38,548 nt of DNA, taken from positions 1 to 38,548 of the forward strand of contig JALFAW010000119.1 of NCBI GenBank assembly GCA_022773305.1, given 5' to 3'. This stretch comes from Spirochaetia bacterium. Its GTDB lineage: Bacteria; Spirochaetota; Spirochaetia; Treponematales; Treponemataceae. This document shows positions 11,479 through 37,910 of this stretch, one piece after another (positions within the stretch are counted from its first letter, which is position 1; each line of letters begins with the position of its first letter). The notes beneath the pieces are model-generated. The model saw nothing but the letters and a program-made list of their open reading frames with translations. It did not search any database and was not told the DNA's origin. A program made the translations under genes and the position numbers.

Positions 11479-14190
11479 TTAAATATCTTTAGCCTTTGAA
11501 ATGTTTTTTACAGTGTAATCATATTTGTGTTCATTAATTGTGAACTGTAAAATATCACCTACTTTTTTGTTCAAAATAGCATCACCAAATGGAGCCATGT
11601 AAGAAATTACGTTGTTATCAGGATCTGATTCCCAAGGTCCCAAAATTGTGTATGTTTCTTCGTTTCCAGTCTGATTGTCTTTCAAACTTACTACAGTTCC
11701 AAAAGAAATAATTGCTGTTGTGCTTGTTGTTGGGTCAAATACCACAGCACGATTAAGCTCATTCTGAAGATTTGTAAGTTTGAGATTAAGGAAGTGCTGC
11801 TCTTCTTTTGCTGATTTATATTCCTGATTTTCTTTCAAGTCGCCTTTTGCTTTTGCATCAGCCACTTCTGCAGCATTCTTTGGAATAAGAACATTTTGAA
11901 TTTCATCAACTTCAGCTTTCTTTTCAGCAAGTTTTTTAGCTGTCACAATCAAGCCAACTGACTGCTGCTTCTTTTCTTCAGAAACGCGGAATTTGAAATC
12001 TGGATATTTTTCCAAAATCTTGTTTCTTGCAAGAGCTTTGTATGAAGGGTCAATGTCGGAAATATCATCAATGAGTGTATACATTTTTTTGACTGCATCT
12101 TCACCATTTGCAAACATATAATTGAAAATTGCGTCTGTTTTGAACAACAAATCAGTTGCATTTTTATTGATTTTCTTGTTTTCTGTAGAATTAACATGAT
12201 TGTTAATTTCACGGAAAGTAAGTTCAATAATATTGATAAGAGTTATCAACTGCTTTTCGTAAGAAACGCCAGCTTCGTTGAACCAGTCTTTATCCTGACA
12301 TTCTTTGAAGAAGAACAAAACAGTCTCACGGAAATCTTTAAAAGCTTCAAAACTTGTTCGGACTAATTTTTGAACATCTTCAACATGTCCTTCTTTAATT
12401 AAATCGTTCAAAAGTTCTTCTTTAAGCACAATTGGGAAAAGTTTTACATATTCTTCGTTCCAGTTTGGAAGAAGTTTTATGCATCTGATAAAATCATCTT
12501 TGAAATGTGTAGATTTTGAGTCTTTAAGCAAAAGGTAAATTTCTTTTGGATCTTCTATTCTATTGTAGATTTCGGCAAAAGTTTCTTTCACAGGGAAAGC
12601 AAACTGTTTATCGATTGCAGAAATTGAACGAACAAGAAGATAAGATGCCAAAACCTGTTCATTCACTTTCGAAATGTTTTTAAGATATCCTGTGAAATAT
12701 GAATACATCTCTGCAAAAAGTTCACTTGAATTATCAGTGTCATCACTTTCAAAGAATTTTACCAAAAGGTCAGCACGTGCAAAGAATTGTTTTTGAGCTT
12801 TAAATTCGTTTGAAATTTTTTCTTCTGGAGAAATATTTCCGTCACGAACAGTGTACATTGAAATATCATTTGGATTTACACCAAAACTTGAATCTGTTTC
12901 AAGAATTCTCTTTGCTGCAGAATTCCAAGAAGTCCATTCACCTGGAGTCAAAATTGAAGGTACGAGTTCTGCCTTGATGCGTTTGAAATCACAATTGTTA
13001 TCAAAACTACGAATAATTATTTTCAAAGTTTCAGCCTTATCAGCTTTTACAGATTTGATTAAATCTTCTTTCTGCATTGTAGCTTTCAATACCCAAATAT
13101 GATCTTTTGCAAGAGGTTTCAACGCAGTTACAGCCATAGAAAGTTTCATTTCTTTTATGCCAACTATGCGACCAAAATTGATTGTCAAAGTATCGCCTTC
13201 AAGTTTTCTGATGCGACCAACACCCCAATTTCTGTGGAACACATAACTTCCTTTATCAAAAGCAATGTGTTTTTCAAAATCATTGATTGCCTCAAAAACA
13301 TTTCGATAGCTTTGTGTCAAATTTGATGTACGAATATATTCTTCAAGATGACTGTGTTCTTTATATTTCCCACGGAAACAGTCTGCTATTTCTTTTCTTG
13401 CCCAAATATCTTTTGGTTCAACTTCAAGATTTTGTTTAAGAATCGTAATTGCAACATCCCAATATTCTTTTTTAGATGGAGCATTATCTTTGTACCAGTT
13501 GTAAAGTTCCTGCATCAATGTTGTTGTGCGAATATCCCCCATCTGTTTAGAAATTTTTCTTCGTAAAAGCTGGAAGAAATCAATTTCCTGAGGAATATAC
13601 TGAATAAGCTTTGACCAAACTTCCTTAATTGCATTGTAATTTGAATTGTTGATATAACGAAGAATTGCTTTTTTGTAATAACTTATAGTCAAATCAACAT
13701 CCCCAGCTTCTTCGTAATGTTCAGCCAAAAGTCTTGCAAGATCAGCTTCTTCAAAGTCAATTTTTACAATATGAGCATATAAATCCCAATATTTTTCATT
13801 ACCTTCTGCACGATAACCTTCAGCCAAAGTTCTTAATGCAAATTTATTGTTTGGATCATCTTCAAGAATACTCTCACATAAATAAGTTACGATAGGTTCC
13901 TTGTGATTATTCTTAAAAATGTCAACTAAAGTTACCAAAGAAGAATTATCAAGCGAACCTTTCTGTAAATCAAGAACTCCGCAGATATAAAGAGCAATAA
14001 TACTGTCTTTTGAATGAGACAAATGTTCCTGACATATGTCATAAATTTCGTCTGCACAATTTTCACTGTGTGCTTTTTCAACAATATTTGCAAATTCTTT
14101 CAAATTGTTTTGTGTGTAATTGCTAATTGTTGCACGTGTCCAAGTTTCTTCTTTCAGCATGTCCTGAACTGACTGAACTAATTCTGCCAT
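11479..14190 (-). CDS. greA: Long spirochaetal GreA: TPR-like region, CarD/Tudor-like segment and C-terminal GreA domain
   Basis: GreA rescues backtracked RNA polymerase by stimulating transcript cleavage. Here the GreA domain is only the last ~155 of 903 residues: its coiled coil carries the active tip GDLKENQEYKSAKEEQ (the D and E that position Mg2+), and the C-terminal FKBP-like part follows (GTVVSLKDNQTGNEETYTIL in pieces). The first ~330 residues are TPR-like helical repeats; around residue 345 lies VFHRNWGVGRIRKLEGDTLTI, resembling a CarD/Tudor-like RNA-polymerase-interaction fold. The frame is open to 14250, but AGGAG 8 bases before the ATG at 14190 fixes the start. A GreA of this length is known in Borrelia and treponemes, which supports the spirochaete assignment. 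The function of the long extension is not known to me. Confidence 0.9.
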   Translation of the reverse strand: MAELVQSVQDMLKEETWTRATISNYTQNNLKEFANIVEKAHSENCADEIYDICQEHLSHSKDSIIALYICGVLDLQKGSLDNSSLVTLVDIFKNNHKEPIVTYLCESILEDDPNNKFALRTLAEGYRAEGNEKYWDLYAHIVKIDFEEADLARLLAEHYEEAGDVDLTISYYKKAILRYINNSNYNAIKEVWSKLIQYIPQEIDFFQLLRRKISKQMGDIRTTTLMQELYNWYKDNAPSKKEYWDVAITILKQNLEVEPKDIWARKEIADCFRGKYKEHSHLEEYIRTSNLTQSYRNVFEAINDFEKHIAFDKGSYVFHRNWGVGRIRKLEGDTLTINFGRIVGIKEMKLSMAVTALKPLAKDHIWVLKATMQKEDLIKSVKADKAETLKIIIRSFDNNCDFKRIKAELVPSILTPGEWTSWNSAAKRILETDSSFGVNPNDISMYTVRDGNISPEEKISNEFKAQKQFFARADLLVKFFESDDTDNSSELFAEMYSYFTGYLKNISKVNEQVLASYLLVRSISAIDKQFAFPVKETFAEIYNRIEDPKEIYLLLKDSKSTHFKDDFIRCIKLLPNWNEEYVKLFPIVLKEELLNDLIKEGHVEDVQKLVRTSFEAFKDFRETVLFFFKECQDKDWFNEAGVSYEKQLITLINIIELTFREINNHVNSTENKKINKNATDLLFKTDAIFNYMFANGEDAVKKMYTLIDDISDIDPSYKALARNKILEKYPDFKFRVSEEKKQQSVGLIVTAKKLAEKKAEVDEIQNVLIPKNAAEVADAKAKGDLKENQEYKSAKEEQHFLNLKLTNLQNELNRAVVFDPTTSTTAIISFGTVVSLKDNQTGNEETYTILGPWESDPDNNVISYMAPFGDAILNKKVGDILQFTINEHKYDYTVKNISKAKDI

Positions 14191-14333
14191 ATTATTACTC
14201 CTAAAAAAAATTCTGCATTGGTGGTTCGCTAAATCTTCATAATAATGCAAAAAGCAAATTCATGATATCTGCAATAAACTCACAACAAAAGCAGCTGTTT
14301 CTTCTATTTTTTATACCATCTCTCTGGTAACAT

Positions 14334-15414: not shown

Positions 15415-16995
15415 TTACATAGAAGGTTCATTTCTTCTTTTTATTATACCCCCCTCCACCTTAATATTTGACAATTCTTTTATAATGTCCTGCAGTCTAT
15501 AAATTACTTTAGTCTTATGAATTCCTGAATAACCTGTTTGTTCAGCAATATGGTAAAGATATTCATTACAAGCCATAACTAATTCAGGTCTACGAAACTC
15601 AAGCAAAAGTTTTTCAGCAGTATTTTTATATAAAAAAGCTAATCCGTCTTCATTAACTGTCAAATTATAATCACCCCACACTTTGTCATAAGGTACAAAA
15701 TAAAAATTTTCATAATTTTCAAGAAAATAAATTATATTTTTCAAGTGCATTACATAAGTTTCTATTGTGTAACATGGATAATCTTCAAAAAGTTTTATAG
15801 GGGACATAATCGGGACTTTTCCTTCAATTATGTCATTTATTTTCGGAAGTTTAGTCATATACAAAATTTTATGTTCGTTTAAATATTCTTCAAAAAATGT
15901 AGTTTTTTCAAGAAAAAAATTTATTTCCTCAAAAAAACCACTTTTCAATTTTTTATTTTCTAAAATTTTCTCAAACACTTCCTTTGGAATTGCACTTGGA
16001 GGAAGCACTGTTGAAAGACTTATCTGATTCCCATTTTTATTAAAAAACTCAATAAAACTTTTTTTAGATTCTTCATAAGATCTAAAAACATTTATTGCTG
16101 GGCGACACATTGAAAGCATTTGGTTAAACTGCCTTGAAGTTGCATTTATAAGTTCTGTATTAGTTGAAAATAAAGTCACATCGCTTTCACTGTCAAGTCC
16201 AATCGAATTTGAAATTCTTACTGCTTCGTTTGGAATTATGAAAACTGAACGCCTGTAAAGATTATCTCTTAATCTTGGATAATAAAACACTTTCACTCGC
16301 CCCGTACTGTACATTGGAAGCCAAAATCTAAGCGAATCTGTATATCGAGGTAAAAAATTTATAGCAGGCATAATTTGATAGAATGTAAAACCTTTTTCCA
16401 AAATTGTAATAATCTGGGACTGAATTTTTTTTGTCAGAGAATAATCATATAAAAGCCATTCAAGATTATCATCTGAAGTTATAAAAATATCACAAGGTTT
16501 TTCCATAGAAAGAAGTTTATCAGAAATAATCTGAATCACTTTACGTCGGCCTTCATCTCCAAAAAAAAATTCTGATTCTACATTTGATTGAAAATCACCC
16601 TGAGTATTACGTTGAATATTATTCATAGAAAAAGAATCATTATTTTCTGTAGGTTGATCAATATTTTCAAGGATATTTTCCATTAAATCACTTCTATCAC
16701 CATCATTTAGTAGCCAGTTTTCCAAATATTTTGCAAGCATTTGATTTGGCATAGAAGAACTGATAGAAGCTTTTCCTAACATTTCAGAAATTGCGTTTCT
16801 TTGAAACTCTGCCTGACTTTTTTTTGCAAAGAATTCCGCCATGTTCACAATATGCTGATAATTGTGTGGCTTTTTTCTATTTCCTGATTTTAAATGGCTG
16901 ATTAATGAAGGATCTACATAAATACTTTTTGCAAGTTCTTTATTTGAAGTCTGTGTAATATTCATCAAAAAAATTAATTTACTGTTAAAATCCAT
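15415..16995 (-). CDS. HTH (XRE-like) DNA-binding protein with large unknown C-terminal domain
   Basis: A 526-residue protein. Residues 1-60 are a Cro/CI-type helix-turn-helix (TSNKELAKSIYVDPSLISHL, then KSGNRKKP). A polar linker with Asn/Ser-rich sequence (about residues 105-150) leads to a long C-terminal domain of mixed alpha/beta character (for example WLLYDYSLTKKIQSQIITIL and RVKVFYYPRLRDNLYRR), which I do not recognise by name; it may sense a ligand or cell state. The ATG has GAGG 6-7 bases upstream. It is divergent from the HPt-DUF342 genes; tandem TGTCAT palindromes upstream are probable operators, likely for autoregulation. A T-rich stretch follows the stop. Confidence 0.72.
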   Translation of the reverse strand: MDFNSKLIFLMNITQTSNKELAKSIYVDPSLISHLKSGNRKKPHNYQHIVNMAEFFAKKSQAEFQRNAISEMLGKASISSSMPNQMLAKYLENWLLNDGDRSDLMENILENIDQPTENNDSFSMNNIQRNTQGDFQSNVESEFFFGDEGRRKVIQIISDKLLSMEKPCDIFITSDDNLEWLLYDYSLTKKIQSQIITILEKGFTFYQIMPAINFLPRYTDSLRFWLPMYSTGRVKVFYYPRLRDNLYRRSVFIIPNEAVRISNSIGLDSESDVTLFSTNTELINATSRQFNQMLSMCRPAINVFRSYEESKKSFIEFFNKNGNQISLSTVLPPSAIPKEVFEKILENKKLKSGFFEEINFFLEKTTFFEEYLNEHKILYMTKLPKINDIIEGKVPIMSPIKLFEDYPCYTIETYVMHLKNIIYFLENYENFYFVPYDKVWGDYNLTVNEDGLAFLYKNTAEKLLLEFRRPELVMACNEYLYHIAEQTGYSGIHKTKVIYRLQDIIKELSNIKVEGGIIKRRNEPSM

Positions 16996-17031: not shown

Positions 17032-17160
17032 TGTCATTTATTATGATATGTCATTTTTTATGACAATTCAAGTTTTTTTATTGTTTTTTTCTACTATAAA
17101 TTATAATATGACAAATAACACATTATTTTATTTGTAATTTTGGTGTCATTTATTTTGATA
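17032..17160. promoter_or_regulatory. Three 17-bp palindromic operator candidates (TGTCAT-N5-ATGACA)
   Basis: A perfect-arm palindrome TGTCATTTTTTATGACA lies at 17049-17065. Directly abutting it on the left, 17032-17048 reads TGTCATTTATTATGATA (one arm mismatch), and a third copy TGTCATTTATTTTGATA lies at 17144-17160. A lone half-site ATGACA is at 17108-17113. The sites start 37 bases upstream of the ATG of the divergent HTH gene at 16995. Two abutting copies suggest cooperative binding by a dimeric regulator, most simply that HTH protein. Confidence 0.6.
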
Positions 17161-17198: not shown

Positions 17199-17432
17199 AG
17201 GTTCAATTTCGAGTATTTGATTTACAAACCGTGGCAAGGATTGTAAGGGCTGGCGAAGCCAGTTCCGAAGCGTAGCGAAGGAATGAAGGTAGCACGAAGT
17301 GCGTACGTAACCCTGGAAAGCGCGAGTTTGCAGTGCAAACTCGGGACGAGAAATGCATAGCATTTCTCGCATTTTTTGCGAAGCAAAAAGCCACCCTAAA
17401 AATAAAAAAATTCAAAACTCGACATTTGTCCT
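17199..17432 (+). mobile_element. MITE-like element, copy 1 (full length)
   Basis: A 234-bp non-coding element that begins AGGTTCAATTTCGAG and ends CTCGACATTTGTCCT; the ends form an imperfect terminal inverted repeat (about 16 of 22 positions). It is flanked by ATT on both sides (17196-17198 and 17433-17435), a probable 3-bp target duplication. Inside are perfect hairpins, for example GAGTTTGCA-G-TGCAAACTC and GAGAAATGC-ATA-GCATTTCTC. No ORF for a transposase, so it is non-autonomous. It ends 17 bases before the HPt start codon, so it lies in the leader or promoter region of that operon. Confidence 0.8.
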
Positions 17433-17449: not shown

Positions 17450-17818
17450 ATGAATTTACAAGATTTTTTTACTGTGTCTGGTTCCAGTTATGAAGAAATT
17501 CACAATCGTATATCTAGTGATTCATTATTAAAGAAATTTCTTAGACAGTTTTTGGAAGATACTACTTTTAAAAGTTTAGAACAAGCTATTTCAAAAAAAG
17601 AATATAAAAATGTATTTTTTGCCTCACATTCATTAAAAGGTGTATGTTCAAATCTTGGACTTTCAAACCTTGAAAAAAAATTAATTGTTCTTTTAGAATA
17701 TTTACGAACAAACTCTGAAAATCCCAATATTGATGAAAAGTACTGCAATGATTTGTTTTATCAAATAAAACAAGACTATGAAAAAGTAACAAACGCAATT
17801 AAAACTCTAGAAAACTAA
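17450..17818 (+). CDS. HPt-domain phosphotransfer protein
   Basis: A 122-residue protein that is essentially one histidine phosphotransfer domain, a four-helix bundle that relays phosphate between response-regulator receivers. The phospho-accepting histidine is H60 in ASHSLKGVCSNLGL, which fits the HxLKGxxxNxG consensus. No other domain. GGAGAA lies 6 bases before the ATG. It is 20 bases upstream of the DUF342 gene and in the same run as a receiver/HD-GYP gene, so a relay ending at that regulator is plausible. The partner hybrid kinase is not in the window. Confidence 0.88.
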   Translation: MNLQDFFTVSGSSYEEIHNRISSDSLLKKFLRQFLEDTTFKSLEQAISKKEYKNVFFASHSLKGVCSNLGLSNLEKKLIVLLEYLRTNSENPNIDEKYCNDLFYQIKQDYEKVTNAIKTLEN

Positions 17819-17838: not shown

Positions 17839-20025
17839 ATGAATAGTAATGAATCAAATTTTAATATAAATGATTTTTCCAAAAGCCAGCTCGAAGAAAT
17901 TCAAAAAGGACTTGAACAAAAATTAAATGTGTCTGTTTATGCAAAAAAAGAATTTCTTGCCATTCAGATGCGGCAAATTCGACTTGGACTTCAAGATAAA
18001 CTTCCTGTAGAAAAATATGCAAATCCTTCTTTTGATTGGTTTCAAATGGAACAAATTCGAATGGGACTAAAAGATGGAATTGATATCTCAAAATATGCAA
18101 AACCTGAAATATCGTATGACAGAATGCAACAAATCCGCCTTGCTCTTTTGGATAACATTGATTTATCTGCTTTCACTAAACTAGAAGCCGGCATATTAAA
18201 GCAACTTCATTTGGGCATAAAGAATAATGTCCGCATAGTTCCATACATCACTCAAGGCTACGATGATGAACAACTTGAAGCAATTCGTGAAGCAATGGAA
18301 AAAAAGCTGCCAATTGATGAATATGTGAACAAAACATTTCGTGGCATTGCTCTAAAAGAAATCTTTACAGGTCTTGAACATAATGTTGATGTTAAAGAAT
18401 ATGCAAAACTTAATCTAACTTGGCAACAAATGAGAGAAATCAGACTTGGTCTTGAACATCGTGTAGATGTGAGTCAATATAATAATCATCTTTATTCTGC
18501 AAAACAAATGAAAGAAATCAGGCTTGGACTCGAAGAAGGACTTGACGTATCTTATTACAAAAGTCCAATTTTTGCTGCCAAAGATATGTATAAAAAAAGG
18601 CTGGAACTTCTAGATAATCCAAAACTTGCAATAGAAACTAACAATAAAAATGAACCATCCAAAACAGAAACTCAATTTCTTCAAAAAATAAACATTTCAC
18701 TTTCTCCTGATGAAATGGAAGCCTACCTTCAGATTGACAAAAAATACATTCCAGGAAGAATCAACATAATCATCGCGCTCACTGACAAAGGAATAAAAAA
18801 CGGCATTGACTTCGAAATGGTAGATGCAGTTTCAAAAGGTGAAATTGACCAAAGTAGCGTGATTATTGCAAAAGGAACACCATGCATTGACGGAAAAGAC
18901 GGATGGTATGAATTTTATTTTCAAACTAAATCAGATAACTATGAAGAACTTCTAGAACAAGATAAGATTAAGTTTTCACAGATCGAATGGTTTGAAACTG
19001 TCAACAAAGACCAACAGCTTGCTTATTATCACAAATCAATACCTGGAAAAGACGGAACAACTGTAACTGGTAAAAAAGTATATGCAAAACGTTGTAAAGA
19101 ACTTCCACTCCTTTCTGGCACTGGAATTAAAAAACAAAAAGACAATGTAACTTACATTGCAAATCAAAACGGTGTAATTATGCTTGACGGTTACACACTC
19201 AAAGTAACTCCACTTTTAAAACTTAAAGAGGTTACAGCATCCACAGAAATAAACTTTACTGGAAATATTATTATTGAAGGAAACGTGAAATCTGGTGCAA
19301 AAATTCATGCAACTGAGGATGTTCTGATAAAAGGAACTGTAGAATCTGCACAAATCAACACAGAAGGAAACTTGATTCTGCAAAAAGAGTTTATAGGATA
19401 CAAAGATGCCACAATCAGAGCTAAAAAAAATGTTATTGGTCCAGATTTTGAACTTGTAGAAATTTATGCCAGCCAGAAAATTATCGGAAATAAGTTTAAA
19501 AACTGTATTTTATATGCACAAGGTCAAGTAAAAACTGTAGGACAGGATGGAATGATAACTGGCGGTTCAATTTGTGCAGAAAACGGAATAAAAACCGTAA
19601 ATCTTGGCACACAAGAACGCATACCAACATTCATAAAAATCGGCAAAATAGAAAGATTTAAGCAGCGGGAAAACAATTACAATTCTATTATTCGCGATGT
19701 AAGTCAGGAACTTTTTACTCTTCAAAATGCTCTCAAAGAATTTCAAAAAAGGTTTTCTCCTGAACTTCGAAACAAAATGGAAATGTATTTAAAAATAGAA
19801 AATGCCATTTACACAAAAGAACGAGAAATGGAAAATATTTTGAAACAAAAACACGATTTACTTGAAGAAATCAATAAATCTGAAACAGCCTGCGTAGAAA
19901 TAACTGATATTTTATATGAAGGAGTTACTGTGGAAATAGACGGAACAAAATATCAGTCCCAAAAAACAAAAGGTGTGATTCTGCAGAAAAATGGAAAAGT
20001 TATAGACGAAGTTTATGTAAAATAA
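17839..20025 (+). CDS. DUF342/FapA-like protein with ten N-terminal ~25-residue repeats
   Basis: A 728-residue cytoplasmic protein. Residues ~8-260 consist of about ten tandem repeats of 24-26 residues with the pattern QM.QIRLGL..G.DVS.YA.P (for example MRQIRLGLQDKLPVEKYANP). Residues ~290-650 match the DUF342/FapA family: DGKDGWYEF and PGKDGTTVTGKKVYAK are its typical glycine-rich motifs, followed by a right-handed beta-helix (EINFTGNIIIEGNVKSGAKI, EDVLIKGTVESAQINTEG). The C-terminus (~residues 610-690) is a coiled coil. DUF342 proteins are thought to be polymerising or regulatory proteins; exact role unknown. The start has TGAGGGG 6 bases upstream. Co-directional with HPt and HD-GYP genes. 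The repeat type is known from gut-bacterial proteins, where it is also unexplained. Confidence 0.82.
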   Translation: MNSNESNFNINDFSKSQLEEIQKGLEQKLNVSVYAKKEFLAIQMRQIRLGLQDKLPVEKYANPSFDWFQMEQIRMGLKDGIDISKYAKPEISYDRMQQIRLALLDNIDLSAFTKLEAGILKQLHLGIKNNVRIVPYITQGYDDEQLEAIREAMEKKLPIDEYVNKTFRGIALKEIFTGLEHNVDVKEYAKLNLTWQQMREIRLGLEHRVDVSQYNNHLYSAKQMKEIRLGLEEGLDVSYYKSPIFAAKDMYKKRLELLDNPKLAIETNNKNEPSKTETQFLQKINISLSPDEMEAYLQIDKKYIPGRINIIIALTDKGIKNGIDFEMVDAVSKGEIDQSSVIIAKGTPCIDGKDGWYEFYFQTKSDNYEELLEQDKIKFSQIEWFETVNKDQQLAYYHKSIPGKDGTTVTGKKVYAKRCKELPLLSGTGIKKQKDNVTYIANQNGVIMLDGYTLKVTPLLKLKEVTASTEINFTGNIIIEGNVKSGAKIHATEDVLIKGTVESAQINTEGNLILQKEFIGYKDATIRAKKNVIGPDFELVEIYASQKIIGNKFKNCILYAQGQVKTVGQDGMITGGSICAENGIKTVNLGTQERIPTFIKIGKIERFKQRENNYNSIIRDVSQELFTLQNALKEFQKRFSPELRNKMEMYLKIENAIYTKEREMENILKQKHDLLEEINKSETACVEITDILYEGVTVEIDGTKYQSQKTKGVILQKNGKVIDEVYVK

Positions 20026-20058: not shown

Positions 20059-20090
20059 TTGCCAGTTCTCATTTCATTGATAACTGGCAA
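20059..20090 (+). promoter_or_regulatory. Perfect hairpin overlapping an alternative TTG start
   Basis: TTGCCAGTT (20059-20067) and AACTGGCAA (20082-20090) form a perfect 9-bp stem with a 14-base loop. A strong GGAGGTG ribosome site at 20049-20055 lies right before it, and the first stem triplet TTG would be an in-frame start for the response regulator gene, 29 codons before its ATG at 20146. The hairpin is followed by A residues, so it is not a rho-independent terminator on the plus strand. It may influence translation of the next gene. Confidence 0.5.
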
Positions 20091-20145
20091 AAAAAGTCAT
20101 TCGATTGTTGAAACAATCTTCTTGATTTTTTTATATGAAGAAAAC

Positions 20146-21240
20146 ATGCGAAATAAAATCTTGATTATTGACGATATTGAATTAAACAGAACTCTTTTAT
20201 CAGAAATGCTTAAAGAAGACTTTGACATATTGGTTGCACAAGAAGGCAAAGAGGCACTCCAAGTTCTTGATGAAAATCACGATGATATTGCACTCATTCT
20301 TTTGGATTTAATCATGCCACAAATGGACGGTTTTCAAGTGCTTGAAGAAATCAAAAAAAGACCATGGAGTTATCACATTGCTATAATGATAATCAGCAGT
20401 GAAACAACAGACAAAATTGAAACAAAATGTTTTGATTATGGTGTTTCAGATTTCATCCATAGGCCATTTGACGAACGTCTTGTAAAACGACGTGTTTCAA
20501 ATGTATTTGCACTTTATCAGTATCAGGCTGGACTCGAACTCAAAATCAAACAACAGACAAAAAAACTCAATGATCAATTTCTGTTACTTCAAAAACAGGC
20601 AGAACAGTTAAAAAACAGCAAACAAAATGTCATTGATATCTTAGGAACAGTCGTAGAATACAGAAATCTTGAAAGTGGTGAACACATCAAACGAGTAAAA
20701 AGTTATACTCAAATTCTTGCAACACAAATTATGCATGATTACCCTGAATACAATCTGACAAAAGAAAGAATAGATGTAATTGTTTCAGCAAGTGCGCTTC
20801 ACGACATCGGAAAAATTGCAATTCCAGATTCTATTCTAATGAAACCAGGCAAACTCACTCCAGACGAATACGACTTTATGAAATCCCACACCACACGAGG
20901 ATGCGAAATTCTTGAGAATATCGAAAACGCATGGGATGCGGAATATGGTAAAGTAAGCTACGAAATCTGCCGTCATCATCATGAACGATACGATGGGAAC
21001 GGCTATCCAGATAAACTCAAAGGAGAAAAAATACCAATTTCAGCTCAAATTGTGTCACTTGCTGACGTTTACGATGCACTAGTTAACGAACGCGTCTACA
21101 AAAGTGCCTTTTCAAAAGAAAAAGCATTCCAAATGATAACAACTGGAGAATGTGGAATTTTTTCACCAAAACTTTTAGACTGCCTTTGGAATGTTAGAAA
21201 GGAATTTGAACAGATAGCAGACCAGAATCACACAGAATAA
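20146..21240 (+). CDS. Response regulator with HD-GYP c-di-GMP phosphodiesterase domain
   Basis: A two-domain regulator of 364 residues from this start. The receiver domain (1-120) has the acidic pair IIDD, the phosphorylated aspartate D54 in ILLDLIMPQMDG, and a threonine/serine and lysine-type switch region (MIISSE). A coiled linker (QQTKKLNDQFLLLQKQAEQL) leads to a complete HD-GYP domain: LHDIGKIAIPD, the KSHTTRG helix, HHHERYDGNGYP and SLADVYDAL. All metal-ligand positions expected for an active c-di-GMP hydrolase are present. The start is uncertain: a TTG at 20059 with a strong GGAGGTG site would add 29 residues, but alignment to receivers favours the ATG at 20146, which has only a weak site. 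It lies in the HPt-DUF342 run. Confidence 0.88.
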   Translation: MRNKILIIDDIELNRTLLSEMLKEDFDILVAQEGKEALQVLDENHDDIALILLDLIMPQMDGFQVLEEIKKRPWSYHIAIMIISSETTDKIETKCFDYGVSDFIHRPFDERLVKRRVSNVFALYQYQAGLELKIKQQTKKLNDQFLLLQKQAEQLKNSKQNVIDILGTVVEYRNLESGEHIKRVKSYTQILATQIMHDYPEYNLTKERIDVIVSASALHDIGKIAIPDSILMKPGKLTPDEYDFMKSHTTRGCEILENIENAWDAEYGKVSYEICRHHHERYDGNGYPDKLKGEKIPISAQIVSLADVYDALVNERVYKSAFSKEKAFQMITTGECGIFSPKLLDCLWNVRKEFEQIADQNHTE

Positions 21241-25542: not shown

Positions 25543-25774
25543 AGGTTCAATTTCGAGTATTTGAATTACAAACCGTGGCAAGGATTGTAAGGGCTGGCGA
25601 AACCAGTTCCGAAGCGGAGCGAGGGAATGAAGGTAGCACGAAGTGCGTACGTAACCCTGAAAAGCGCGAGTTTGCAATGCAAACTCGGGACGAGAAAATG
25701 CTATGCATTTCTCGCTTTTTTTGCGAAGCAAAAAGCCACCCTAAAAAAAAAATTCAAAACTCGACATTTGTCCT
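25543..25774 (+). mobile_element. MITE-like element, copy 2 (full length)
   Basis: A 232-bp copy of the element at 17199-17432, same orientation, with the same ends and more than 90% identity by eye; differences are single changes and one or two indels. It is flanked by AAT on both sides (25540-25542 and 25775-25777), a 3-bp target duplication that differs from that of copy 1. It lies in the divergent valS/gap intergenic region. No ORF of its own is supported. Confidence 0.8.
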
Positions 25775-37749: not shown

Positions 37750-37910
37750 AAATGTCGAGTTTGATTTTTTATTATTTTTTTGGGTGGCTTTTTGCTTCGC
37801 AAAAAACAGGCTATCCGGGGTTCCGCTATCGCTGCATTCCTTCGCTACGCTTCGGAACGGCTTCGCCGCCCCTACTATCCTTGCCACGGGAAAGTCTAAA
37901 TCGCACTTTT
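37750..37910 (-). mobile_element. MITE-like element, variant copy (inverted)
   Basis: Inverted relative to copies 1 and 2. The right end (AATGTCGAGTTTGATTTTT), the GGTGGCTTTTTGCTTCGC block and the CTTCGC...CCTTGCCACGG block are retained; the hairpins with GCACGAAGTGC and GAGTTTGCA are absent and the left end after CCTTGCCACGG has diverged. With the copy at 38430 it forms a shorter subtype (both have GCTATCGC/GCGATAGC). It lies between the WYL and XRE genes. Confidence 0.65.

Follow-up and report, generated by a model that had tools for sequence, protein, structure and literature searches.

Candidate autoregulatory operators between the gene of an unnamed helix-turn-helix regulator and a divergent HPt-FapA-HD-GYP run in a gut Treponema

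Why does a short intergenic region of a gut Treponema carry three copies of one palindrome, and which protein might read them? The window (the whole stretch of DNA analysed, 38,548 nucleotides) comes from contig C199 of a gut Treponema assembly. All three copies lie between two divergent genes, one encoding a 526-aa helix-turn-helix (HTH) protein (15415-16995, minus strand) and the other a 122-aa HPt protein (17450-17818, plus strand; Pfam Hpt, E=3.5e-7). The original prediction described one perfect and two near copies of a 17-bp palindrome, TGTCAT-N5-ATGACA, with two copies abutting, and this was confirmed. Candidate operator B (17049-17065, TGTCATTTTTTATGACA) showed no mismatches, candidate operator A (17032-17048, TGTCATTTATTATGATA), which directly abuts B, showed one, and candidate operator C (17144-17160, TGTCATTTATTTTGATA), located 95 bp from B or about nine helical turns, showed two. 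Also on the plus strand are the genes for a 728-aa FapA (DUF342-type) protein (17839-20025; Pfam FapA, E=1.1e-37) and a 393-aa response regulator with an HD-GYP-type HD domain (20059-21240; Pfam Response_reg and HD_5). Judging from the sites and their surroundings, we consider it likely that the divergent 526-aa HTH protein uses A, B, and C as its operators; it would repress its own gene and set the expression of the HPt-FapA-HD-GYP run. Elsewhere in the window, a 923-aa protein (11479-14250) has a C-terminal GreA domain and matches NCBIfam PRK14720.

The palindromes had also been predicted to exceed chance. This held for their clustering, for the perfect copy, and for their conservation, but not for the raw count in the window, where five matches at up to two mismatches against 3.18 expected from shuffles are not significant on their own. 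In the genome from which the window was taken, 18 places matched at up to one mismatch, compared with 14 for a reversed control pattern. Four of the 18 formed two tandem pairs, one at the window locus and one in a second copy of the region on contig C40, and the remaining 14 equaled the control, so that outside the locus and its second copy the palindrome was at background level and not frequent. The form TGTCA-N7-TGACA showed no genome-wide excess in Treponema (3, 8, and 4 matches against 6, 6, and 4 for the controls in G000, G006, and G131, respectively), and a genome-wide regulon in Treponema was rejected on these counts. In ten Bacillota genomes, the same form summed to 79 matches against 31 for a reversed control that may fit the composition poorly; at least about 14 of the 79, among the matches listed, were local to the locus.

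A scan upstream of orthologous genes found the palindrome conserved in both Treponema and Bacillota. Sites A, B, and C were all kept in every Treponema copy (the window, the C40 copy, G006, and G131) with B-to-C start spacings of 95, 95, 94, and 95 bp, respectively, while much of the intervening DNA was changed. B was perfect in three of these four copies and carried one asymmetric change in G006. The C40 copy (G000:C40:14874-15192; L128 9875-10193) lies at a contig end and comprises the operator region and the first HTH codons; it was 98.4% identical to the window over 319 bp and then diverged. Because this copy faces an AMP-ligase-like gene (a name read from the sequence, without database support) and not an HPt gene, the HTH/HPt pairing is not obligatory. 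A collapsed duplicate, a strain variant, and a mobile unit would each account for the C40 copy equally well. In G131, pieces of the HTH gene lie on two contigs (L125 1-531 and L126 2312-3562) with a common 55-bp end, and they are not equally similar to the window (86% against 95% identity), which suggests gene conversion or the presence of two copies. Close to its 3' end, the HTH gene contains a C/G homopolymer tract (window ~15448-15460; L008 ~1540) that is longer in G131, where the reading frame stops early.

For the homologues, 46 upstream loci were collected, and 44 were retained after exclusion of L056 (start missing) and L009 (distant). Removal of seven near-duplicates (L006, L041, L010, L069, L076, L060, and L082) left 37, or 36 for the Bacillota-only test, and consequently placed two of the L102, L103, and L105 group outside the upstream counts. 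Only the test of the window palindrome used a pattern fixed beforehand. As first written, the palindrome was perfect in 4 of the 36 Bacillota upstreams (0.005 in shuffles) and present at up to one mismatch in 8 of the 36 (0.035 in shuffles). In an unbiased search for inverted repeats with perfect 5-bp arms, a gap of 7 was the commonest (23/37 upstreams, with a shuffle mean of 9.96 and a maximum of 16), followed by a gap of 5 (22/37). The pattern TGNCA-N7-TGNCA, with half-sites 12 bp apart, was picked after inspecting the sequences; it occurred in 22 of the 37 nonredundant upstreams against a shuffle mean of 0.14 and a maximum of 2; among 604 control 200-mers taken from these loci, 0.8% contained it. 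TGNCA pairs with symmetric arms were found in 18/37 (0.02 in shuffles), and in 26/37 when one mismatch was allowed (0.9 in shuffles). These counts point to TGNCA, paired at N7, as the putative half-site. Eleven of the 37 upstreams had no site even at one mismatch. By eye, L046, L047, and L078, which belong to one clade, showed a weaker TGTCA-N7-TTAC form, and no site was found in the HPt-paired relatives L048 and L111.

Next, we examined the position of the sites relative to promoters, which were identified as consensus matches and not as mapped transcript starts. The predicted sigma-70 promoter of the HTH gene (17043-17071, minus strand) consists of TTGAAT (17071-17066), a 17-bp spacer, and TATCAT (17048-17043), with 9 of 12 consensus matches. 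The spacer is exactly site B, and the complementary strand of A's ATGATA arm (17043-17048) supplies the -10 box. To judge from the letters, A may be imperfect because these six bases would have to fit both the TGTCAT of an operator arm and the TATAAT of a -10 box. The location of B and A inside the predicted HTH promoter fits autoregulation and thereby supports the autoregulated switch that had been suggested. Relative to the predicted own start, the operator centre was at -21 in seven of 43 homologues (three Treponema sequences, L043, L044, L055, and L074) and at -49 to -52 in twelve; in 18 of the 43, the exact site was not found within 170 bp.

On the other side, the predicted HPt-ward promoter (17081-17107, plus strand) consists of TTGTTT (17081-17086), 15 bp, and TATAAT (17102-17107). 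In the window its -35 box is poor and its spacer is 15 bp, and its TATAAT was identical in all four Treponema copies of the alignment. The predicted HPt start in Treponema is preceded by B at about 58 bp and followed by C at about 37 bp. The distance from the B-type operator centre to the best predicted divergent start was 57 to 60 bp in all seven loci of the spacer class, which represent about four independent groups. In the shuffle control, 14 to 44 of 300 sequences per locus (5 to 15%) fell within 56 to 61 bp, an interval set after the values had been seen. In three further homologues (L102, L103, and L105), each of the two divergent genes has a perfect palindrome next to it, the two palindromes being at a distance of 107 bp from each other.

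An HPt gene was divergent to the HTH gene in 11 of the 48 stretches scanned, in both phyla (the window, G131, L043, L101, L109, L111, L048, L124, L112, L046, and G006); in G006, a contig break places the HPt gene on a separate contig from the HTH gene. Longest-ORF calls missed the HPt genes of L048, L112, L124, and L046, which were recovered with the HPt profile in six frames. Other divergent neighbours encode an RR-EAL-GGDEF protein in L102 and, by similarity, in L103 and L105, as well as histidine kinases (L091 and L108), a GGDEF protein (L090), and an SLH-domain protein (L096). In L112, a perfect palindrome is located on the HPt side, and in L101 there is one on each side. As a control, 27 HPt genes of Treponema loci lacking the HTH gene were fetched of 33 matches, and TGNCA-N7-TGNCA was found upstream of none (0/27); the control is imperfect because these HPt genes are distant (27-39% identity). 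The FapA gene of G006 (L127 508-2645) is split over frames with internal stops, and the signalling module may be decaying in this genome.

The original prediction further held that the switch might control the HPt-DUF342-HD-GYP run. The divergent HTH/HPt arrangement kept across phyla, the extra palindrome copies near the divergent gene, and the constant distance between B and the divergent promoter argue for this part, and from them we infer that the run is likely to be under operator control as well. It could instead be that the sites serve the HTH gene only and that the divergent HPt operon is a bystander. This would explain why A and B fall within the HTH promoter and why the divergent neighbour is an unrelated gene in the C40 copy and in some homologues. 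However, it does not sit well with the HPt pairing across phyla, the retention of C in all Treponema copies, the constant promoter distance, or the palindromes found on the HPt side in L112, on both sides in L101, and at each gene in L102, L103, and L105, and we regard it as rather unlikely. That another host-resident regulator binds the palindromes is improbable, since sites of this class accompany the HTH gene in both phyla and show no enrichment at other places in the Treponema genome, even if the link between the HTH protein and the sites is one of association. RNA hairpins (a terminator or attenuator) or chance dyads, to which the A+T-rich region and the near-chance two-mismatch count in the window would lend themselves, are the least credible source and highly improbable, because the predicted HTH transcript would begin downstream of B, fixed-spacing conservation and recurrence in Bacillota oppose chance, and the terminator reading was rejected after a terminator scan flagged only a different site (17347-17369).

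The adjacent HTH protein is thus the favoured reader of the sites. Searches of Pfam and NCBIfam with the 526-aa regulator returned no matching family, no Pfam HTH scored above the cut-off for its family, and a sequence search of solved structures gave no meaningful match. In the predicted structure (mean pLDDT of 76 for the full-length model), an N-terminal lambda-repressor-like HTH is followed by two PLD-like lobes. The predicted helices at residues 3-72 aligned to 7p4a, 7t5u, and 3jxb with Z scores of 8.8-9.6 (P22 c2, 8.8; CapH, 8.9; SaPI repressor, 9.6), and the regulator matched PHROG 1124 (E=5e-5). Residues 133-301 were PLD-like, with Z scores of 12-14 to PLD4, TrmBL2, NucT, and TrmB; a comparison with TrmB and TrmBL2 gave 11.6-13.2 (TrmB 3qph, 12.3; TrmBL2, 13). 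The C-terminal half, folded alone (pLDDT of 85), was also PLD-like but weaker, with a best Foldseek E value of 1.5e-3 and Z scores up to 11 (8.7-10 to TrmB-family PLD-like domains). Unlike phospholipase D enzymes, 42 of the 43 homologues lack the catalytic H-x-K-x4-D pattern, which was present in one. A Pfam scan of eight family members, up to E=5, did not find the TrmB winged-helix domain. No title or abstract opening in the literature search dealt with this regulator family or its operator. Altogether, the palindromes very likely represent the autoregulatory operator of a regulator family that is so far undescribed.

The HTH gene was present in 3 of 196 Treponema genomes, plus one remote match of 20% (4/196 in the genus and 4/274 in the family). 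The Bacillota homologues of the regulator were 41-48% identical to it and were sparse in three Bacillota families (12/349, 10/397, and 13/300 genomes at E<=1e-60, centre genomes included). In a midpoint-rooted tree of 42 rows, the Treponema sequences were nested within Bacillota beside a Eubacterium sequence with support of 96/94, which points to horizontal transfer of the HTH gene. No relatives of the regulator were found in viral contigs. FapA of the window type occurred at 86-89% identity only in G131 and G006, with the other matches listed for the genus at 29% or less, whereas the FapA beside HPt in L101 of Bacillota was 60% identical to the window FapA over 173 aa. Thus, the HTH, HPt, and FapA genes were probably shared together, and the regulator appears to have moved from Bacillota to the spirochaete along with HPt and FapA.

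Operators of the lambda/P22 repressor type are clustered 17-bp dyads that overlap the regulator's own promoter. The Treponema locus shares the lambda-type HTH and the clustered 17-bp dyads over the own promoter, but it is not a phage locus, its putative half-site is TGNCA, and the C-terminal part of the protein consists of two PLD-like lobes instead of a cleavable or oligomerization domain. In GalR-type systems, paired operators flank a promoter. Here, the predicted HPt promoter is likewise flanked by two candidate operators, with a spacing of 95 bp (107 bp in L102, L103, and L105), but a site would also serve the regulator's own divergent promoter, and any loop is conjectural. As in autoregulated divergent regulator-target pairs, a divergent candidate target gene, HPt, is conserved, in this case in both phyla. 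Archaeal TrmB/TrmBL regulators combine a DNA-binding domain with a PLD-like domain. The present regulator has the same combination at the fold level; it differs in being bacterial, in carrying a lambda-type HTH in place of the TrmB winged helix, and in having two PLD-like lobes, which by analogy with TrmB probably sense a ligand. A review on the archaeal regulators is listed as PMC4158304.

We propose that, when bound at B and A, dimers of the HTH protein would span the spacer, -10 box, and start of the HTH promoter, thereby repressing the protein's own gene. With B about 58 bp before the predicted HPt start and C about 37 bp after it, the protein could also set the expression of the HPt-FapA-HD-GYP run: B might serve as an activating site, B and C might be joined by a loop, or each mode might operate in a different ligand state. 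More tentatively, and with clearly less confidence, the locus may be a horizontally shared module in which one dimer provides both an autorepressor site (-21) and an activator site (-58), a second site beyond the target promoter acts as a loop anchor or brake, and the PLD-like lobes link a small ligand to the output of the phosphorelay. Such a module would combine the HTH/double-PLD-like sensor with HPt-FapA-HD-GYP or, in relatives, with histidine kinase or EAL-GGDEF proteins, the divergent genes served by the -58 activator site being phosphorelay or c-di-GMP genes. The protein would be a bacterial regulator that unites a lambda-type HTH with a double PLD-like sensor and is positioned ahead of such genes. 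A family left unnamed by Pfam and NCBIfam here is now tied to a DNA site, a geometry, and candidate targets, which makes the regulator's function testable with single-site mutations.

Finally, repeats were noted in the window and in G006. The dispersed repeat GCGAAGCAAAAAGCCACCC is present three times exactly in the window (17378-17396, 25723-25741, and 37782-37800), where 0.01 would be expected at up to three mismatches, and one copy falls between site C and the HPt gene, in a stretch absent from G131. In G006, both contigs break near a common ATTAATCAGTGGTTCCTTAA repeat (L012 ~33-60 and L041 ~36-60). Provided that the HTH and HPt genes are adjacent in G006, the two repeats are in opposite orientation, and they are possibly the ends of an inserted element.
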